Shown: positions 1,179-40,924 of the stretch, one piece after another
Numbering within the stretch: position 1 is the first letter of the stretch
How the letters are laid out: each line of letters starts with the position of its first letter
Source: Acholoe squamosa
Lineage: Eukaryota > Annelida > Polychaeta > Phyllodocida > Polynoidae
DNA length: 64,000 bases
Reading direction: 5' to 3'
Assembly (NCBI GenBank): GCA_949317995.1
Contig: OX439045.1
Location: forward strand, 5,079,674-5,143,673
Made by a program: the position numbers and the translations under genes
The notes under the pieces: generated by a model
Database searches by the model: none
Told to the model about the DNA's origin: nothing
The model's input: only the letters and a program-made list of their open reading frames with translations

Positions 1179-1690
1179 CTCAGTACACAACGAGCTGCTG
1201 CGTGTTGTCCGCCGTAGGCGGGTAACATACGTTCCACGGCTGGAGATGCCGAATGCGCCCTCCCCGGGTAGCTGTATCCCGTGAGTGGCGGTCGGATTAA
1301 CCGGTACATTCGCTTCGAAGCGTTGTATACACCGCCAAGCTCCAGATGATAGCACTCGGGTAGTAGGCCGCGTCTCGCATGTCGAGTCGAATGTTAGTTC
1401 GGATCTAGTTCCCTAGGTGGCGCCGCGGGTGCGGCGGGAAAGCGCGGAACTAGGTCACCGGATAGCCACGGCGGGATCTCGCGTGACGAGAGGTCTGACG
1501 TCATACTGGTCATAACTAGGGCGGACTCGTGGTGGTTAGACGCCACCCGTTTTCGCTCTAGTTAGTGTTGGCGGTTTACAGCCTCTAGCTGTCGAGTTAG
1601 CTTGTTCTAACACACCCCTTTTGTTGGACGAATCCTTCGAGAGGAGTCCAACACATTTGCCAATTTTTATTGGAAGTCGCCCTCAGTGCC
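1179..1690 (+). other. spacer between integrase and third ORF
   Basis: About 510 bases, GC-richer than the host sequence, with no convincing ORF. It probably acts as the leader or splice region for the downstream ORF, but no splice acceptor could be singled out. The short reverse-strand reading here is an antisense shadow. Confidence 0.5.
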
Positions 1691-4600
1691 ATGGCACAGG
1701 GGACGATTGATGCTGCGCGTCAAACTGCCAACGTTCTGTTGGAGGAAGGCGAGGACCCGAAGGTCCCGTCTCGGGTCGAGGAGTCTATGGACTCTTCTAC
1801 TGAGGAGGCAGCCCGGACGCTCTCGGCGATGGCCGAGGCCACCGACCGGGAGAGGATGCCACCTCCACCACCACCGCGCCCGGAGCCCGCGTCTACGGCA
1901 GCAGCTTCGGGTGGCAGTATGGATGTCTTGGACATTCCCCTGTATCCTCCGGGATTCAAGACTCGTATCGAACGTATGGCACACGTCAATTGCGAGGCCG
2001 GTGTTGTATACACCTCCTGGGGGACTTATATCCCCATGCACGCCTCCATGTTCGGATACGGACCGCTGGCGGCGAAACCAGGCGTGCCCGAGGCCATACC
2101 AGACGACTTCAAGACTCTGGTTATGGACTCGTGCAGCGACGAGTTGGCTGACAGTATGCCAGTCTCTTGGCTCCGCAACTATCAAAGGTTGGGGGAGAAG
2201 ATGGTGGTCAACGAGAGCTTGGCCCGAGCAGTGCTGATCTCCGAAGGCATCACCCGAAAGGCCGCGGAGTTAAGAGAGTCTGAGTCTGACATGGAGACAG
2301 ACTCTACAGTAACCCTCTCTTCGTTGGAAACCGACCGGGTCAAGCGATTGACCCATAAACCTGCGCCAAAGGGTTCTCTCATCTCGCGTCAGCAGGCTGC
2401 TGTTGAAGCCAAGCGAGCCGAGCTCACCAAGCAGCAGAAGCAGCTCACCGCAGCTCGTCGGGCCCACCGCAAACAGCAGGCCCAAAGCAAAGCTAAGGTC
2501 TCTTCCGACTCTGACTCCCCGGTCAGCGGTAGGAGGAGCCCTTGTACGGAGGACAGGAATCCACGGGAGTCGGATTCCAGTCCTGAGGTGCCGGCGCAGC
2601 CACCCAAGGTTCAGCGCCGGAAAAAGAAAAATGGAGCGAAAGCGTCTCCGGCAGAGCCCACGCCCCCCACCAAGCCGAGGGGCAAGGGCAAACCGAAGGC
2701 GCCCGCCTCCACCACTTCAACCACCACGGTAGCCACCTCGGTTACTGCAGCTTCCACTGCCAGCACCAGCGGGACAAGCGCCAAGTCTTCTACCAAGGCT
2801 CCGTCTGGTACTACCACCACCAGCCGAGCCAGCCGTAGGGGAGCAGGCATCTACACGGACAGTGAGGGAAGCGAAAGCGACCCAGAGCTGCCCGAGTCAG
2901 CCAAATCTGATTTGGAGTCCGTGACAACGTGGGAAGAAATGACCACGGATGTCCCAAAGGACGACAATCAGAAGTGGATGTGGAAGAATGCAGCCGAGGG
3001 GTTCAAGGAACGGACTCCCCGCTGCTTCGCGGACTGTGCCTATGACACGGTCCACTACATGTGTCCGGGCGCCGTCAATAAGGACGGTGATAGCGATGAC
3101 GAGGAGTGGATGAAATCCGGCCCCTCGGATACGCCAGTAGGTAAATTCTACCTCATTTGGATCGACCAGCTGAAATCCAAATTGGGGTCTATCTACAGTT
3201 ATGAGGCCCGGACAAAAGTCCATTGGGCGATGACCCAATGGGGACCAACCGGCAACCGCCGAAGGTGCCCATTTGAGTCGTGCCAGCTGGCTCTCACGGG
3301 TGAAAAGGTGTTCGAGACGAAGCCCCGCTTCGCTCGGCACATAGTGGAGCATCACATGCACCACAAACCTGTGATGATGTGCGTGCTCGGAGACCGTCCG
3401 AGCAAGTTATGTGATGGCTCGTTCAACACTCACCGGCGCCGAGACATGGCTCTGCACTTGCAGAAAGCCCATGGTATTGGCCTGGAGAAGACGAGGAAGC
3501 GGGCCATCAAGTGCTTCAACGAGCTCCTAGCTAACTGGGCCTCGTTGAGCGTAAAGGACATAAAGGAGCAGGCATTCGAGACCGGATTCTGCTCGTGGAA
3601 GAGTGGCAACTTGTTGACCTTCTTCCAGATCAACTTCTCCTCCACAAAGTTCGGGATGCCCAGCGAGGTGCACCTGAAAGTGAAGAAGTGGAGAGGAGAT
3701 GATAAACGGGAGAAGGCCAAAGCCCGCTCTAAGGGTCCTAACGGAGGCACAGCCACGGCTACTGGTGCTTCCAAAAGGACCCGAGCAGACCGGTCCGTAA
3801 GCCCTTCGGGTAACAAGGACCAGCCCAGACCAGCCAACCCAGCTGATCATCGTGAGTCGGGACAACAAGTCTCGGCTCTGGATATGCCTAGCAACCAGGC
3901 CCATAGGACGGTTAGCCAGGCGGCCACCCCGGCCACAACTTCGACACCTGCACCCGCGGAACAACGCCCGGGCGAAGCCTCTGCCAGCCAGGATGATGGG
4001 GGCGAACTCTTCGCTCCCCCATCCGGGTATTCATCTTGGTGGGCTGGAGAGGGATCTTCCGGCAAGCGCCCCACGTATAGTGAGTACGCGGCGAAGTTCC
4101 CTGCTATGAGACAGGCTGGACCCGAGTCGCAGGTCCTAACCTCCCTGGGCCGGACCAAGCCCCGTGGTAGAGGCCGTGGTGGGCTGGAGTCCACCCGAGC
4201 TTCCCCGGGTGGTGGCCGAGGTCGAGGTGGTGTCACGGTTGAGGGCCCGTCTGCTCCTCCAGCAGGCACCCCGCCTGCCTCAGTGGAGGCCGCCGCGCCC
4301 CCACCAGTGATAGTTCCACCAACGGCCCCTCGGGTGCCCGTTATGGAGCTAATCTCCGGAACTCTGTCAGGTCTTCAGGATCCGAACACGTTTGTTGACC
4401 ACCGCGATGTCCAAACGGCTCAGATCCAGAATGACCTGATGGCGGAATGGCAGGCATTGCACCGCCAGAAGTCGGTCGACTACTGGCGTGTGATGACTGA
4501 AGCCACCTTCAATCTGGTTTACGAAATCCAGAGGAGGGAGGAAGAGAAGATCAGGCAGCTGGAAAGGAAGAAAGTCGAGGAGGCTCTCGAATCCTGCCGG

Positions 4601-5068
4601 CGTCAGCAGATGGAAGCTGAAAAGCTTAAGGAGTTCCACCGCGCTGAGAACGCCAGGTACATTCACAGGTACAAGGAGGCTGACCTCAAATTCTTCCTGG
4701 CATTCGGGAAACACCTAGAGAAGTGGGACGGCCTTCCGTCGTCCCTAATCTTCATCCCGGATGCTCCACCGGTCCCGGCTGCTCCACCGGTTCCGGCTGC
4801 TCCACCGGTCCCGGCTGCTCCGCCGGTTCCGGCAGCTCCCCCACTTCCGGCTGCTCTTTTCGCCCGGACTGCCCCAGCTGCCATGGTTGCTTTACCTGCA
4901 TCCGAGGCACTGGACAGTCCATCCGCGGTGATGAGCGCTTTGAGCCTGGGGAGCGACACGCCCAGCGAGGCTTCCACGCTGCTCTCTGTGAGCAGTTGCA
5001 GCAGCTCGGCCCCATCTGCCTCAGTGGAGTCGGCTGAGAAGATGGACACGGATCCGGAAGATCTCTAA
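1691..5068 (+). CDS. large third ORF of the Gypsy-class element, zinc-finger protein of unknown function
   Basis: An uninterrupted frame of 1125 codons in the env position, downstream of integrase. The ATG at 1691 sits in a good context (GCCATGG); an upstream in-frame TTG is less likely. Layout: an acidic, Ser-rich N-terminus; a folded-looking stretch around residues 75-190; a Lys/Ser/Thr-rich low-complexity linker; then a Cys/His region near residues 525-590 with two C2H2-like fingers (CPFESC followed by HIVEHHMHH, and CDGSFNTHRRR followed by HLQKAHG). After that come an RGRGRG-rich part, a charged helical segment likely to form a coiled coil (about residues 935-1010), and tandem PAAPPV repeats. 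No signal peptide or membrane segment is visible, so this is not an obvious envelope. The long open frame beside a broken integrase suggests a young copy. A nucleic-acid binding role is inferred from the fingers only. Confidence 0.75.
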   Translation: MAQGTIDAARQTANVLLEEGEDPKVPSRVEESMDSSTEEAARTLSAMAEATDRERMPPPPPPRPEPASTAAASGGSMDVLDIPLYPPGFKTRIERMAHVNCEAGVVYTSWGTYIPMHASMFGYGPLAAKPGVPEAIPDDFKTLVMDSCSDELADSMPVSWLRNYQRLGEKMVVNESLARAVLISEGITRKAAELRESESDMETDSTVTLSSLETDRVKRLTHKPAPKGSLISRQQAAVEAKRAELTKQQKQLTAARRAHRKQQAQSKAKVSSDSDSPVSGRRSPCTEDRNPRESDSSPEVPAQPPKVQRRKKKNGAKASPAEPTPPTKPRGKGKPKAPASTTSTTTVATSVTAASTASTSGTSAKSSTKAPSGTTTTSRASRRGAGIYTDSEGSESDPELPESAKSDLESVTTWEEMTTDVPKDDNQKWMWKNAAEGFKERTPRCFADCAYDTVHYMCPGAVNKDGDSDDEEWMKSGPSDTPVGKFYLIWIDQLKSKLGSIYSYEARTKVHWAMTQWGPTGNRRRCPFESCQLALTGEKVFETKPRFARHIVEHHMHHKPVMMCVLGDRPSKLCDGSFNTHRRRDMALHLQKAHGIGLEKTRKRAIKCFNELLANWASLSVKDIKEQAFETGFCSWKSGNLLTFFQINFSSTKFGMPSEVHLKVKKWRGDDKREKAKARSKGPNGGTATATGASKRTRADRSVSPSGNKDQPRPANPADHRESGQQVSALDMPSNQAHRTVSQAATPATTSTPAPAEQRPGEASASQDDGGELFAPPSGYSSWWAGEGSSGKRPTYSEYAAKFPAMRQAGPESQVLTSLGRTKPRGRGRGGLESTRASPGGGRGRGGVTVEGPSAPPAGTPPASVEAAAPPPVIVPPTAPRVPVMELISGTLSGLQDPNTFVDHRDVQTAQIQNDLMAEWQALHRQKSVDYWRVMTEATFNLVYEIQRREEEKIRQLERKKVEEALESCRRQQMEAEKLKEFHRAENARYIHRYKEADLKFFLAFGKHLEKWDGLPSSLIFIPDAPPVPAAPPVPAAPPVPAAPPVPAAPPLPAALFARTAPAAMVALPASEALDSPSAVMSALSLGSDTPSEASTLLSVSSCSSSAPSASVESAEKMDTDPEDL

Positions 5069-5830: not shown

Positions 5831-5840
5831 GTGGGGGTGG
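5831..5840 (+). promoter_or_regulatory. polypurine tract
   Basis: GTGGGGGTGG lies directly against the TG of the 3' LTR, where plus-strand synthesis of an LTR element is primed. Confidence 0.7.
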
Positions 5841-6202
5841 TGTAGGGGCCGGTATCGTCGTATATATATTAGTGCCGTTCATCCGAGAGACGTGTTCGTG
5901 TGGTGCTTGTTCCTTCTATGCCAGCTAGGTGTCGCTTTGCTATACCTCGTTGGTACAAGAGGGGGCAGCACCATGCCTCGCATCCAGCTTCTACTAAGAA
6001 GCCGGGCGAGCGGCAGAAGGAGACTGGACCTGGTCCAGTCCAGACGCTCAACATAAGCTACTGACCAAGTTGAATAAAGTCCTACCCGAGAGGTAGGGGT
6101 TTCTGGGGCTTTGCCCAACCCGAACTACTCGTGTTGTGTTGGTATATCTAGTGGTAAGCGAGCCAAAGAGCCACCCAACATATAAGTCGATACGAACCAT
6201 TA
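5841..6202 (+). repeat. 3' LTR of the Gypsy-class element
   Basis: Starts TGTAGGGGCC and ends CATTA where the inverted copy at 40500-40864 ends CATTACA, so the last two bases have been lost or mutated. It contains a TATA-like run near 5859-5869 and an AATAAAG polyadenylation signal near 6072. A direct comparison with the LTR at 40500-40864 shows only scattered substitutions. Confidence 0.85.
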
Positions 6203-30050: not shown

Positions 30051-33000
30051 CTACAGAGAAACACCAGCATACAGTTTTTTTTGTGTGAAAAGGATGCAGT
30101 GGCAAACTTAAATGTTACTCAAATGTTACTTTCACATTTTAGTACTTTAGTGTATAAATGGCAGCTTAAAAGCAGATATCAACCATTATGTCTTTAGACA
30201 AAAATTAAAACATATTTATAGTGTAGGGGTTCGTTCCCCCGTCGGTTGCGCAGAGCCTTCAGAGGGACTGTTCACTTGATTGTGTCACTCACCCTATGTA
30301 TACCATACCGATCCAGGGTAGTTGGAAGGTGGAGAATATCAGGCCAGGGGAAGTAGCTCAGGGGTAGCGTCCCGGTTTCTCCATGACATTTTCCGCTGAC
30401 CACTACAGTGGTGGAGAAACTGGGACTCAAACCCGGGACCCCCCAACTTCAAAGCAGAAGCTCTACCCCTGAGCTACTTCCCCTGGGCTGACATTCTCTA
30501 CCTTCCAACTACCCTGGATCGGTATGGTATACATAGGGGGAGTGACACAATCAAGTGAACAGTCCCTCTGAAGGCTCTGCGCAACTGACGGGGGAATGAA
30601 CTCCTACAATAGTATTTAGAACTGAATGCTGAAAAATTGTACTGACCTCGGTCACCCAGTTCCTCATAGTAAGAATCTTTTGTATTGGGTAGTTCTAGGG
30701 CAGTAGCAGGAGGACGACCAGGTACCTTTTTGCTCTCTGTATAAATGTAAGGGAATGGTATTGGTCTACAAAAAATCTCTTTGGTCTTAGTAAATGAAGA
30801 TATATGAATATTTGGCCCAAACTGGTCCCAGAGTTAAGTACTAGCATCCTAGACTCTGGTCTTCTGCCCTATGTATGATGGGAAGGGAAAGGAAAGCAGT
30901 CCATGTAATGTATGGATGAAACTCAAGAGGGAGCTGTGGTCTGACTGATCAGCACGTGTTGTGAATGGTATATAACCTGTGCAGAATAGTGTAGTGGTTA
31001 GAAAACTGGACGGATAATGCAGGGTAAGGGAGTTGTAGGCTAGTCTGATGCTGGTGCTTTAAATCAATCAAAATAATTTTATGTACTGTCAATTTTTATA
31101 TTTTCATTTCATTTTGCACTGCACTGCTGCCTTCACCAAGCATGTAAATGGAAACCTTTTTCAGGACATTAGTTTGACATATTTTAAAAAATTACTATTA
31201 CAATTCATTTGAGTAAAAGATCCCACTTGTATGATGTGCATAACAGCACTGGGATTTGAACTCCTACCCTTCTGATTGTTAGTCCATAGCTCTAACCACT
31301 ACCCTATGATGTCCAGTTGAGGGCAGGTGGTTTAAAAGCAGAACTCATTCTCAAAGATAAGAAATAGAAACCAATCATTTGTGGCCATACATTGCAACCA
31401 CAGGAAAGGGAAATCTCATTGACCTCTACTCACTATGCATTCAATTGAATAACATCTGGAAAATGTTTTTAATTTAAGTGGTGATACCAATCAATCTCTT
31501 ACAGATACACCTTGCTCAATGATCTTGCATCTAATTATCCTGTACAGGCTCTATCCCACAATGCATGGTGCAGAGGACCCGGGGTTACTACAAGTGAGGT
31601 AGTGACACCTGGTATCAGGTTGTATTTGGCCATCACATGGTTCATCATTTACATAGTAATAATCATGAATAACCCTTCAATATGTGAAAATAAGACAATG
31701 GGAAACTGATGAAGTAAACATAGGCAGCTGAGTATCAACCTGGTACCTGTTCCCCAAATCCTAGCGAAGAGAATAGGAGTAGGCATTTCCAACTTAATGG
31801 AAACTGTAAGGATATTTGATGTTTGAAAACTGATCGAATAGCATGAAGATTAAGTGATTCTAAACTTTATAGCAGGTCATAGTCTGTAGAATTTCTTTTT
31901 ATATATGTGAGGTGTGTCTAATACAGAGGTTTCTTAACAACTGTGTGTAAGTAGAGATGAGGAGAGAGCTGCCTACCCATACAGACTATCTAGATCAGAG
32001 TGCATGGATGGTATACTCACCTGACTCACCTATTTCCTCATAATAAACATCTTTTCCATCAGCGAGTTCCAGAGCAGTAACGGGCATATGGTCATGTTCG
32101 TTTTTGTTATCTGTATAAATGTAATGCACACCATTTTATAGGAGGACATTAATTTTGGTAAAGGGAATGGGTGTAACAGTGCTTGCATACAGAATTAGAT
32201 ATTAGGGAACATTCACATTATTGCTGGGCCACTGCCTATACCTTTTCCAATGGAATTCACTTTGGAAAGCAAAAGATGTACACTTCTGTTCACATAAGTG
32301 AGATTACATTGATTATGTGAGTGGAACTCGGTTACTTTCCTTTCGACACAGTAGTGTTATTTCTCCTTCTCATACAGATGAATGAGATGACTGCAACACA
32401 GATGACAACAGCTAATCCTGCCAGTACACCACCAATAACAACTGCAGTGTTCAGTGCACTTTGGATTATGACATTGACTGTTACAGAAAAACAAATTTGC
32501 GATATGTAGAAATGAGTATTGTACACTTGTTGTCATTGAACTGGTTAAAAAAACATATTTGTCATTGGACAACTAAAATTCCATGTCAAGTCATCAATTT
32601 ATATGTAGTTGGAGAGTTCTTTTTTTCTCCATGAGACACTAGCATGAGGTATATGAACAAAACTACTTAGAATATACAAATTCTTTTTTCTGTGGCAATA
32701 TCAACCATAATACTGCAGATTGTTAGGTGAGGGGATGACTTATGTGTCGCATAGATATGGAGAGATCTTGCAGACTGTCATTTTGACATTTATTACAGTC
32801 ACATTGCAATCATTGCATATCTCACCTTCGCAAAGTGTGCCTTGATATCCTGTCTTACAAGTACAAGTAAAGTTGTTCCCCAAGTCATCACATCTTCCTC
32901 CGTGTTGACATGGATTCGAGGAACACTCATCATTCTCTTCTGAAGTTTCAGACCAAATCAAGGCATGATGCAGGTTGTAGATTGATTTCTTTTAACATTT

Positions 33001-37442: not shown

Positions 37443-38169
37443 CTGTAAAAGATATTGCATCCTATAGGAGAATATACCTATTATTTCATGTTAGAAATGT
37501 CAGTTCCTAGGGTAGACTATAATTATGGAAGCAGATAACCCTGTTAAACGGACCAAACAGAACGAAATACCCTCCGAATGTACCTAGGTTCAATCTATTA
37601 GTATTACCCTCTGCCAATGGTGCATTAGTGCATCTTGCCGATTTGTCATCACAATAAATATGTAATAAATAATTTCTTACAGAAAACCAGACAAGAAGCA
37701 CATTCAATTAAAACTTTTTATTGCTGATGGATAATATGTGGACAGGTGGATATCATTCAATTATGTATGGGCAACGTTTCGACTTTATTCAAAAGTCTTC
37801 ATTAGGCTTGTCAATATGTAGCTACTGAGGTAGGTTTTATGATAGCTTTTCCAGGAGGTCAAAGGTCAAGAATACAATCATGGCAACCAGTTTTATGCAG
37901 AGCTAGGCGTTATCTTTGTACCGGTAGTTTGGTAAATATATGGCGTATAGTTATTTTATGGCAGGAATTTTCTGTTGTTGTGGATGTAGTAATAATATAA
38001 CATTTACTAGTAACACATATTATGAATATGACAACATTCTTATAAATACCAATGAATAAATACAACAGTAAGTGAATAAATTAAACTTATTTACAGTTTG
38101 TGCGTATAGTGCGGGGTATACAGTATACCAATAGAACTTTGTAAAAATTTTTTACAAAATGCGAGCATG
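37443..38169. other. 5' flank or intron of gene A
   Basis: No exon was recognised. Around 37765-37810 the reverse strand carries CTAATGAAGACTTT, a loop and AAAGTCGAAACGTTG, a hammerhead-like core with one changed base in CTGATGA, as found in Penelope-type terminal repeats. Confidence 0.5.
37765..37810 (-). ncRNA. degenerate hammerhead-like motif
   Basis: CTAATGA (consensus CTGATGA) followed by a six-base stem II and GAAAC. The changed core G would be expected to abolish cleavage. Confidence 0.35.
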
Positions 38170-38421
38170 TGTAGGGGCCAGCTCTGGCTGTGAGTCCATG
38201 GCGGTATGTTATCTGTCCCCGTTCCCCGGTTGCACCAGCCCCCAGGGGCTGGTCAGCCAGTGAACACTGCCCCCTTGTGTCATACCGATCCAGATGTAGG
38301 TGGAAGGTAGAGAACGTCAGGTCTGGGGAAGTAGCTCAGAGGAAGAGCTTCCGCTTCGAAGTTGGAGGGTCCCGGGTTCGAGTCCCGGTTTCTCCAAAGA
38401 CGTTTTCCGCCGACCTCTACA
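38170..38421 (+). repeat. left LTR of the small element
   Basis: 252 bases, TG to CA. Its first ten bases equal those of the Gypsy-class LTR at 5841. It holds the tRNA-like domain at 38327-38396. Confidence 0.85.
38327..38396 (+). repeat. tRNA-like domain in the left LTR
   Basis: GGGGAAG acceptor 5' strand, TAGCTCAGAGGAAGAG (box A), anticodon loop TTCGAAG (CGA), CCGGGTTCGAGTCCCGG (T arm with exact box B GGTTCGAGTCC), TTTCTCC, then A. The acceptor pairs with G-T wobbles and the anticodon stem has a C-T mismatch. An internal pol III promoter is likely; a decoding role is not. Confidence 0.7.
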
Positions 38422-38422
38422 C

Positions 38423-38436
38423 TGGTGGAGAAACCG
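38423..38436 (+). promoter_or_regulatory. primer binding site matching the element's own tRNA-like domain
   Basis: TGGTGGAGAAACCG is the exact complement of CGGTTTCTCC-A-CCA, the 3' end of the LTR tRNA-like domain after CCA addition. The DNA following the domain in the LTR is AAGA, not CCA, so the match needs a matured RNA. Confidence 0.75.
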
Positions 38437-38583
38437 AGTTGGTCCTGACCCGTGGGGGGACTAGAGAACTCGGTACCTGGACTGGTATGACACAGTTAAC
38501 GCTTCAACCTGCTAGGGGTAAACTAGTCACCTGCTGGAGGTTGGGTTGGAGGAGTAGGGTTGGCTGAAGCTGGTGGGGAGGAG

Positions 38584-38835
38584 TGTAGGGGCCAGCTCTG
38601 GCTGTGAGTCCATGGCGGTATGTTATCTGTCCCCGTTCCCCGGTTGCACCAGCCCCCAGGGGCTGGTCAGCCAGTGAACACTGCCCCCTTGTGTCATACC
38701 GATCCAGATGTAGGTGGAAGGTAGAGAACGTCAGGTCTGGGGAAGTAGCTCAGAGGAAGAGCTTCCGCTTCGAAGTTGGAGGGTCCCGGGTTCGAGTCCC
38801 GGTTTCTCCAAAGACGTTTTCCGCCGACCTCTACA
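38584..38835 (+). repeat. right LTR of the small element
   Basis: Same sequence and length as 38170-38421 by reading. It is joined at its CTACA end to gag-like sequence of the inverted Gypsy-class element. Confidence 0.85.
38741..38810 (+). repeat. tRNA-like domain in the right LTR
   Basis: Same sequence as 38327-38396. Confidence 0.7.
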
Positions 38836-40483
38836 CTACTACTGTCAGAGGCTTCCCGTGGTATATAATCCGGGTCCAAATTGTGGACTATGGGGACTTC
38901 ACTTATCCGAACTCTACTAGTTCGGCCATGTTTATCTTGGGTTCTGATATAAACTCCCCCTTGATCTACGTTCCGCGTCGCATTATCATTAATGAAAGGA
39001 TTATACGGCGGATGCTTCGGCGTAGAACAGGAGACTGGGTCGCCCTGTTTAACGAAAGTCGAATTCGGGTTTGTGTCCTTACTCGCCGGAGGGGCATTCG
39101 CTTGCTCCTGCTCCTGTAAATAACTCTCCATGGCAGACTTATTTATTGTGAGGGTAGCTAGATCTGTGGTTAGGTTTCGCTGTTCCTCCCTCAGCTGTGC
39201 GTTTTCTGCTAAGATTTCGGATCGAATCTTTTCATTTTCCGCCACAGCTCGGTTTCGTTCTTCCTGAGCGGCTAAAGCCTCTCGCTTAAAAGTATCCTTT
39301 AATAAGCGGTACTTTTCACTTTTTTCTTTCTGAGACCTTTGATACTCGTTGGTCTCCTTCCTTATCTCGGCTTGTTCCGAGACCAATTTGGCCTCTGTCT
39401 CCGCCTTTCGGAGTTGAAGTTTCTTCAGCTTCTCCTCCATGGCATGCAACTCGGATTGTAATCTGTTTACATCCCGGGCCTTAGCAACTTCTTCGGCTCT
39501 AGCCTTTTCGATTGCTCTAAGTCTATTGGCTTCCTCGAGTTCCAACTCAGCCAATCTTTTCTCTTTCTCGAGTTCGTCTCTTTCTTTCCTTTCCAAACGA
39601 TGGGTTGCCGAAGTTAGACGATACTTTAGGTCAGATTCTTTTAGAATCGCCTCCTGCTCCTCGGAACGTAATTTTCCGATCCGAGACTTAGTTTCCTCTT
39701 CTATTTTTAATTGGGCCGCCATGAATTGTTCATGTTGCCGCTTAGCTTGTAACTCTACCTGTTCTTTGGCTTTCAAATAGGCCGGGGTAGTTTTATACCC
39801 GGGGCCCATCCGACGTCCGTATATAGACCTGCGACTGCCTCCAGGATTAAACATGGAGTCAGACAAGCCTTCGTCTAGCGATCGGCCTAAGTGATGCCTT
39901 TCCGAGCTTTTCGGTTCAGCACCCCTAGGCTTATTCTTCGCATTCATGCTTGGGACTATTGCGTCCCTTATGGCTTTGCCATCGTCGCTGTCATGGTCCG
40001 ACGATGTCATTAATGGGGGTACCTCGTTTGCACCATCCGGTACTGCTACTGGGGGGGGGTCGCAGTACATTTTCCAGGGCTTTGTGCCACTGGCATACCC
40101 AAGTTGCTAGCCGAGCCTGCTGGTACAATAGGACACAGCTGGCGTCTACTAGTTATAGCTTGGGACCAATCACTCAGGTCTAAAGTCGGGGGTTTTACTA
40201 TTCCCTTGAACAATCCCGTAGCCGGTACTCCCATTTGGGGTGTACCCGGATACAAGTTTACGATACCATCACCCGTGGCACCGTCTATCAGACCAGGTGT
40301 CGAGAAAACAGTTCGGACACCCGCCGGATTATACATTTGTTGTTGACTGGGTTTCCAGTCTAACAACAGATGCTGGGATGTAAAGTCATCCTCTTCGAAT
40401 CCCTCTAGCCCAGGGCTGGGGGGATCCGCTTCAGGTTTCCCGAGGCTTTCGGCCAATGTGGCCGCGCACCACCCCCGAACCAA
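38836..40483 (-). pseudogene. gag-like ORF of the Gypsy-class element, frameshifted and truncated
   Basis: Two overlapping frames (about 40483 to 40046, then 40070 onward) meet at a run of nine G at 40051-40059, so one gag frame seems split by a homopolymer slip. The first part is Pro-rich and acidic. The second has RRSIYGRRMGPGYK and then about 240 residues of strongly charged helix (EELEKEKRLAELELEEAN-type heptads), a long coiled coil, then HGRTSRVRISEVP. The end is replaced by the right LTR of the small element, whose reversed tRNA-like part reads RNRDSNPGPSNFEAEALPL, not a gag sequence. The structural protein role is inferred from its place after the primer binding site; no zinc knuckle is seen in this fragment. 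Confidence 0.65.
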
Positions 40484-40485
40484 CT

Positions 40486-40498
40486 GGTCACGGCACCA
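40486..40498 (-). promoter_or_regulatory. primer binding site, tRNA-His type
   Basis: Reverse strand TGGTGCCGTGACC, one base after the LTR end. It complements the 3' end of metazoan tRNA-His (GTCACGGCACCA), as I know that sequence. Confidence 0.7.
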
Positions 40499-40499
40499 G

Positions 40500-40864
40500 T
40501 GTAATGGTTCGTATTGACTTATATGTTGGGTGGCTCTTTGGCTCGCTTACCACTAGAAATACCAACACAACACGAGTAGTTCGGGTTGGGCAAAGCCCCA
40601 GAAACCCCTACCTCTCGGGTAGGACTTTATTCCACTCTAGTCTACAGGTTAGGCTGCGCGTCTGGACTGGACTAGATCCAGTCACCTTCTGCCGCTCGTC
40701 CGGCTCCTTAGTAGGAGCTGGACGCGAGGCATGGTGCCGCCCCCTCTTGTACCAACGGGGTATCACAAAGCGACACCTAGCTGGCATAGAAGGAACAGGC
40801 ACCACACGAACACGTCTCTCGGATGAACGGCACTAATATATATACGACGATACCGGCCCCTACA
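40500..40864 (-). repeat. 5' LTR of the inverted Gypsy-class element
   Basis: 365 bases on the reverse strand from TGTAGGGGCC to CATTACA, with AATAAAG. It is the same family as 5841-6202 and the fragment 46953-47196. Confidence 0.85.
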
Positions 40865-40924
40865 CATGTAATCAATTTACTAGTCCATGAGTTCATAACG
40901 ATACCCCTTATCTTTCTTTGAGGC

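Follow-up and report, generated by a model that had tools for sequence, protein, structure and literature searches.

A Helenus-kind TRIM of Acholoe squamosa with a primer binding site complementary to the tRNA-like 3' end of its own LTR

Introduction

LTR retroelements normally need host tRNAs as primers. The primer of Tf1 is the 5' end of its own mRNA, without a CCA, and Lund et al. 1997, by title, reportedly complemented the impaired primer binding site (PBS) of a murine leukaemia virus vector with an engineered tRNA-like primer; that primer was man-made, whereas the tRNA-like domain described here is natural and encoded in an LTR.

The closest described elements are the Helenus TRIMs, which carry a tRNA-derived sequence in the LTR (Kojima 2024, PMC10886601). 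According to section 3.6 of that paper, the LTR tRNA was not found to be complementary to the PBS and plays no part in initiation; for animal Helenus elements the section gives Lys, Leu, Trp, Arg, His, Ile, Pro, Glu and Ser as primer types, a list from which Ala is absent. The same paper describes the plant TRIM Cassandra, with 5S rRNA in its LTR. Our element resembles Cassandra and Ajax in having a piece of a pol III gene within TRIM LTRs, but they carry 5S where it carries a tRNA, and the primer named for Ajax is tRNA-Leu (PMC10886601). In PMC6934838, Tf1 and its relatives are named as self-priming LTR elements, and the TRIMs described from bivalves are without a clear PBS.

Results

Anatomy of the element

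Positions 38170-38835 of the window, as we call the whole stretch of 64,000 nucleotides that was analysed, hold a 666-bp TRIM with paired LTRs, a PBS and a polypurine tract (PPT). It thus has what marks a TRIM, namely two LTRs, a length below 1000 bp, a PBS and a PPT and no mobilisation proteins: no open frame of at least 150 aa lies wholly within it, and two frames of that size cover part of its 3' LTR and continue beyond the element. The parts are as follows.

38170 to 38421, forward strand: 5' LTR, TGTAGGGG...CCTCTACA, 252 nt, from sequence
38325 to 38396, forward strand: tRNA-like domain of the 5' LTR, 72 nt, tRNA-Ala-like, from Rfam, ARAGORN and alignment with host tRNA-Ala
38403 to 38406, forward strand: candidate pol III terminator TTTT, from sequence, with a putative function
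38422, forward strand: single-base spacer between LTR and PBS, from sequence
38423 to 38436, forward strand: PBS TGGTGGAGAAACCG, a 14/14 complement of the tRNA-like 3' end plus CCA
38437 to 38571, forward strand: internal region, from sequence
38572 to 38583, forward strand: polypurine tract GGTGGGGAGGAG, its presumed role judged from its place
38584 to 38835, forward strand: 3' LTR, same sequence as the 5' LTR, from LTR comparison
38739 to 38810, forward strand: tRNA-like domain of the 3' LTR, from an Rfam match

The two LTRs (38170-38421 and 38584-38835) are 252 nt each with zero differences between them, and the Rfam tRNA model RF00005 matches the LTR domain at 50.1 bits, which bears out the first-pass annotation in its description of 252-base LTRs that each contain a tRNA-like domain. 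A tRNA-derived sequence in the LTR is also what characterises Helenus. Box B of the 5' LTR domain, GGTTCGAGTCC, lies at 38375-38385 and box A presumably at about 38332-38342; G3:U70 is present by eye, and TTTT starts 6 nt past the final base of the domain. ARAGORN labels the domain Ser-CGA (38324-38397). We rejected a true tRNA-Ser, as the domain is without a long variable arm and aligns with tRNA-Ala, the only isotype compared: in this comparison, which covered tRNA-Ala only, 55/73 and 56/73 positions agree with the host genes. The best fold of the window domain is not a cloverleaf (z -1.07, with 25/200 shuffles equally stable), and the domain of a related copy, of the B family described below, has a stability of z -0.18 against shuffles. 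In the RNA fold, a piece of U5, GTTTTCCGCC, can form base pairs with GGTGGAGAAAC in the PBS region (window 38402-38435).

The PBS and the un-encoded CCA

The PBS TGGTGGAGAAACCG, one base past the left LTR, complements the final 11 bases of the element's own tRNA-like domain, CGGTTTCTCCA, plus CCA at 14/14 positions. At the position after the domain, where CCA would stand, the window LTR has AAG, so that what the PBS matches is a CCA-tailed RNA. Both the complementarity and the missing CCA had been claimed in the first-pass annotation, and both stand; the extent of the match is to be corrected to 14 nt, against the 18 nt of a textbook PBS. A PBS that adjoins the LTR and is complementary to a CCA-ended tRNA is the arrangement of a tRNA-primed LTR element. 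Within the 64-kb window the 14-mer occurs exactly once; allowing one mismatch adds one further site, at 30409, within the palindromic copy of a relative, and at two mismatches there is one site in the window, also in this palindromic copy (30222-30608). We rejected a chance match, given that 14/14 bases agree at the expected place and that the match is retained in A, B and C, with tRNA end and PBS altered in concert in family D.

Copies and related families

Further copies, which the first-pass annotation had proposed looking for, were found: the same genome holds near-identical copies of the window family (A), along with families B, C and D. In the search of the genome (1.48 Gb, 63 contigs), 41 of the 46 listed matches reached 99-100% identity across bases 1-666 (1-660 in one case); 40 of 2737 candidates were scored, and copy counts are lower bounds. 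Exact 4-bp target site duplications (TSDs), the length given for Helenus families of animals, surround 17 of 19 flanked A copies (L001, L009-L026), and the LTR pair is identical in 13 of these 19; the window copy, a chimera, and the L027 and L028 arrays are not in the TSD count. Because the best-scoring copies were sampled, these figures show recent activity and not the age of the whole family. The arrays L027/L029 (C15:21331029-21332314) and L028 contain three or more LTRs. The outer LTR of L029 belongs to a different subfamily with the tRNA end CGGTGTTTCCA, and by eye the array has CACT flanks on both sides.

The four families A, B, C and D are related. Family B (LTR about 221 nt, L049-L060) was traced from the second window copy at 30222-30608, family C (LTR about 249 nt, L061-L067) from the odd LTR in array L029, and family D (L068) from the end of one B locus. 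By eye, A and B diverge strongly in U3 and in their internal regions, yet they have one and the same tRNA 3' end and PBS, which family C shares. In comparison with host tRNA-Ala, the LTR tRNAs of these three families share 55-58 of 73-74 aligned positions and that of D shares 62/73; the D anticodon reads, by eye, TGC (Ala). The LTR domains look, from these alignments, as if derived from tRNA-Ala.

We compared each tRNA end with its own PBS at 41 loci of families A, B and C, among which L060 and L065 have no PBS. The match was exact at 21 of 22 A junctions (13/14 at the remaining one), at 8 of 11 B junctions (13/14 at three, the palindromic L055 among them) and at 5 of 6 C junctions (13/14 in L064). 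The junction of the window palindrome, a B copy that is not in A's 22 and is additional to all these counts, matches its own tRNA end at 13/14. Three LTR ends had been dropped from an earlier PBS count, where flanking DNA or a rearrangement starting TGGT came next. Outside the pattern stands the variant LTR of L029, whose end CGGTGTTTCCA predicts a PBS TGGTGGAAACACCG and matches the PBS behind it at only 12/14; this array appears recombinant.

Host tRNA genes

A tRNA-Ala query against the genome gave 40 listed matches among 998 candidates, from which we read a 5.25-kb part of an array on C15 and ten single genes, 26 tRNA genes in all: 21 for Ala, with TGC or CGC anticodons and accounting for 21 of the 40 listed places, and 5 for Leu. 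A host tRNA gene sharing the 3' end of the LTR domain, another check proposed in the first-pass annotation, is absent from the 21/21 Ala genes (TGC, CGC) read, all of which end CGGCATCTCCA. They would give a PBS TGGTGGAGATGCCG that agrees with either element PBS at 12/14. Judged by their sequences, then, the Ala-TGC and Ala-CGC genes read do not explain the PBS. The tRNA-Ala gene array extends over C15:5088323-5126465, and the part read (L108, C15:5121300-5126550) has interleaved tRNA-Leu genes.

Covariation of tRNA end and PBS

The D-type tRNA end is GGTGTCTCCA where the B-type end is GGTTTCTCCA, with the matching PBS change GGAGACACC for GGAGAAACC. Covariation of the PBS with the LTR tRNA end, the remaining check proposed at first pass, was found in 40 aligned loci (L068 plus 39 places, from the best of 3966 candidates, with one 37-base match omitted). 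Opposite the D-type tRNA the PBS base is C in 28/31 loci and A in 3/31, and opposite the B-type tRNA in the same sample it is C in 0/9 and A in 9/9. The query contained the D tRNA together with the D PBS and the best 40 of 3966 were taken, so the ratio of 28/31 within D is a biased rate. Fisher's test of tRNA type against PBS base gives p = 8e-7 for copies that are not independent, a value that overstates the association because the LTR tRNA end and the PBS lie about 30 nt apart and are inherited together. The covariation rests on one base position, perhaps one event.

Across the 40 loci, the PBS matches the locus's own tRNA at 14 bases in 30, at 13 in 9 and at 12 in 1, with a mean match of 13.7 to the own tRNA and 12.8 to tRNAs of the other type. 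The pairing also holds in loci of mixed composition. D tRNA and D PBS occur together despite another internal type in L075, L076, L081, L087 and L090, and a B-type tRNA 3' end goes with a B PBS in L100, L101, L106 and L107, despite an internal region that begins D-like; L106 and L107 have a tRNA that is itself D-like in its 5' part and B-like in its 3' part, and the PBS agrees with the 3' part. The exceptions are L077, L082 and L089, with a D tRNA beside a B PBS. In L100 and L101 the T-arm of the LTR tRNA is partly duplicated, with 13 extra bases, and the PBS still matches.

Primer-like copies and palindromes

One C-family locus, L064, has after its 5' LTR a single C and a 33-base complement of a CCA-bearing tRNA 3' end, and then a second, normal PBS. 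Compared without gaps, the 33 bases match the tRNA of their own LTR plus CCA at 32/33, the A/B tRNA at 31, the D tRNA at 28 and host Ala tRNAs at 25 and 26. This stretch is primer-like: it is what would remain if synthesis ran beyond its usual stop into a tRNA primer of the LTR type; a template jump from the PBS to the LTR could be an alternative origin. A second structure is the window copy of family B:

30222 to 30608, no strand assigned: B-family palindrome, consisting of an LTR, G, TGG and the full reverse complement of the tRNA-like domain and U3, from sequence

The palindrome is flanked by the TSD ATAG (30218-30221 and 30609-30612), and its forward arm has a deletion within the tRNA domain. 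We rejected an origin by autointegration, since the changeover coincides exactly with the tRNA 3' end plus TGG, which is the layout of a PBS. It may have come from copying of the whole primer or from fold-back at the PBS. In L055, also palindromic, the junction tRNA-CCA-C-TGTAGTGG occurs twice. Together, L064, the window palindrome and L055 suggest that the PBS pairs with the LTR tRNA during replication, be it as primer or in fold-back.

A chimera with a Gypsy-like partner

At 38836 the window TRIM lacks a TSD of its own, and it forms one end of a larger unit, 38170-40864, which is probably a chimera that integrated as one:

38166 to 38169, forward strand: CATG flank, repeated at 40865-40868, the putative 4-bp TSD of the chimera 38170-40864
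38836 to 40864, reverse strand: Gypsy-like 5' part (LTR, PBS TGGTGCCGTGACC, open frame), inverted and joined to the TRIM 3' end, of presumed superfamily
40500 to 40864, reverse strand: partner 5' LTR, which starts TGTAGGGGCC as the TRIM LTR does, from sequence comparison

The partner PBS TGGTGCCGTGACC resembles one for tRNA-His. From its ends and the TSD, the partner would belong to the Gypsy superfamily. Mobilisation of the TRIM by Ty3/Gypsy was examined through its junctions with one Gypsy-like element, the common LTR start TGTAGGGGCC and Pfam, where none of the four window ORFs searched, the partner frame included, had a match (0/4). In C-family loci, the PPT of L067 abuts an inverted LTR end of the partner type, and L061 sits in sequence resembling the partner's open frame. 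Past the first ten LTR bases, comparison of LTRs and internal regions between TRIM and Gypsy-like elements gave no similarity above shuffles.

Elsewhere in the window, a second LTR of the Gypsy-like type (5840-6202) is 93% like 40502-40865 and is preceded by the purine tract AGTGGGGGTGG. An 1132-aa open frame at 1670-5068 (forward strand), with Pro/Ala repeats near its end, is without a Pfam match and had no homologues at E 0.001 among 7978 scored. A pattern scan of viral contigs gave 0 matches.

Discussion

By its features the window element belongs to a known class, the TRIMs of the Helenus kind, with which it shares the LTR tRNA, the PBS and PPT, the 4-bp TSD seen in animals and a suggested Gypsy-type partner (PMC10886601). 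The difference lies in the primer site. Helenus PBSs were matched to host tRNAs in that paper, whereas the PBS of the window element complements its own LTR tRNA over 14 nt, and PBS and LTR tRNA covary between the related families; the score is 14/14 for the LTR tRNA against 12/14 for host Ala-TGC/CGC, within the isotypes compared, and a match to a host tRNA is an observation in PMC10886601 and not part of its definition of Helenus. The first-pass annotation knew of no described element of this sort. That has to be divided, since TRIMs with tRNAs in their LTRs are published as Helenus, while the complementarity was not found according to section 3.6 of PMC10886601. In the open-access literature, searched by title and the start of the abstract (with most subscription papers outside this scope), we found no description of an element-encoded tRNA primer.

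On the best explanation, this is probably a Helenus-type TRIM whose LTR supplies the tRNA-like primer. The covariation, the 14/14 match with its un-encoded CCA and the mismatch of the host Ala genes speak for the proposal, made at first pass, of a pol III primer from the element's own LTR, and priming itself is likely. The chief competing view is that the primer is another host tRNA (Ala-AGC or another isotype) ending CGGTTTCTCCA or CGGTGTCTCCA and that the LTR domain, with its origin in a related tRNA gene, serves as no more than a pol III promoter, as might be expected where section 3.6 of PMC10886601 attributes Helenus PBSs to host tRNAs. We consider this rather unlikely: two such tRNAs would be needed, each in agreement with the LTR tRNA of the very family that it primes, all 21 of the host Ala genes read mismatch, and the 33-nt copy in L064 fits the T-arm of its own family best among the five tRNA ends compared.

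The complementarity might also be historical, left by ancestral copying of a primer or by fold-back at the PBS, so that the pair is now linked and the LTR tRNA is not the primer. The closeness of the LTR tRNA end to the PBS fits such a history, and the palindromes (30222-30608, L055) show that fold-back at the PBS and tRNA may occur, but the B and D states differ with a compensatory change, 30 of 40 loci keep all 14 matches, and a working PBS needs a matching primer, for which none better was seen among the tRNAs read; this reading is distinctly improbable. Most improbable of all is priming in cis, in which the PBS and the tRNA 3' end upstream of it would pair within one RNA molecule and a cleaved end would serve as primer, much as in Tf1. 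In the RNA, eleven bases at the tRNA 3' end do make an inverted repeat with the PBS, and self-priming of the Tf1 type exists (PMC6934838), but the PBS contains TGG, the complement of a CCA that is un-encoded there and that simple cleavage would not yield. What the window element would have in common with Tf1 is a primer from the element and not from a host tRNA gene, with the difference that the primer proposed here is CCA-tailed.

For a Helenus-type TRIM that encodes its own primer, the cycle might run as follows. Pol III would initiate at the tRNA promoter inside the LTR; a stop at the TTTT behind the domain would give a pre-tRNA to be trimmed and CCA-tailed by host enzymes, and readthrough would give a template RNA ending at the TTTT of the 3' LTR, with R corresponding roughly to the tRNA domain. 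The CCA-tailed LTR tRNA would then pair with the PBS and prime minus-strand synthesis, for which a Gypsy-like partner would supply the reverse transcriptase, and the plus-strand DNA would copy the 3' end of the primer into the new PBS, because of which the PBS and the LTR tRNA would change together. On balance we incline to see here a natural lineage whose primer is encoded by its own LTR and co-evolves with the PBS, with the host tRNA pool unneeded for priming.

The window element is a counter-example to the statement in section 3.6 of PMC10886601 that there is no complementarity, and so opposes a published negative on the same point; it probably also runs counter to the statement there that the LTR tRNA has no part in initiation. 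Mammalian LTR elements are described as vulnerable to small RNAs from tRNA 3' ends (PMC7472051). If our reading is true, a self-primed element would be free of the dependence on host tRNAs, the PBS and the primer gene travelling together would offer a route for primer switching, and the tRNA in Helenus LTRs would have a second job besides that of promoter.
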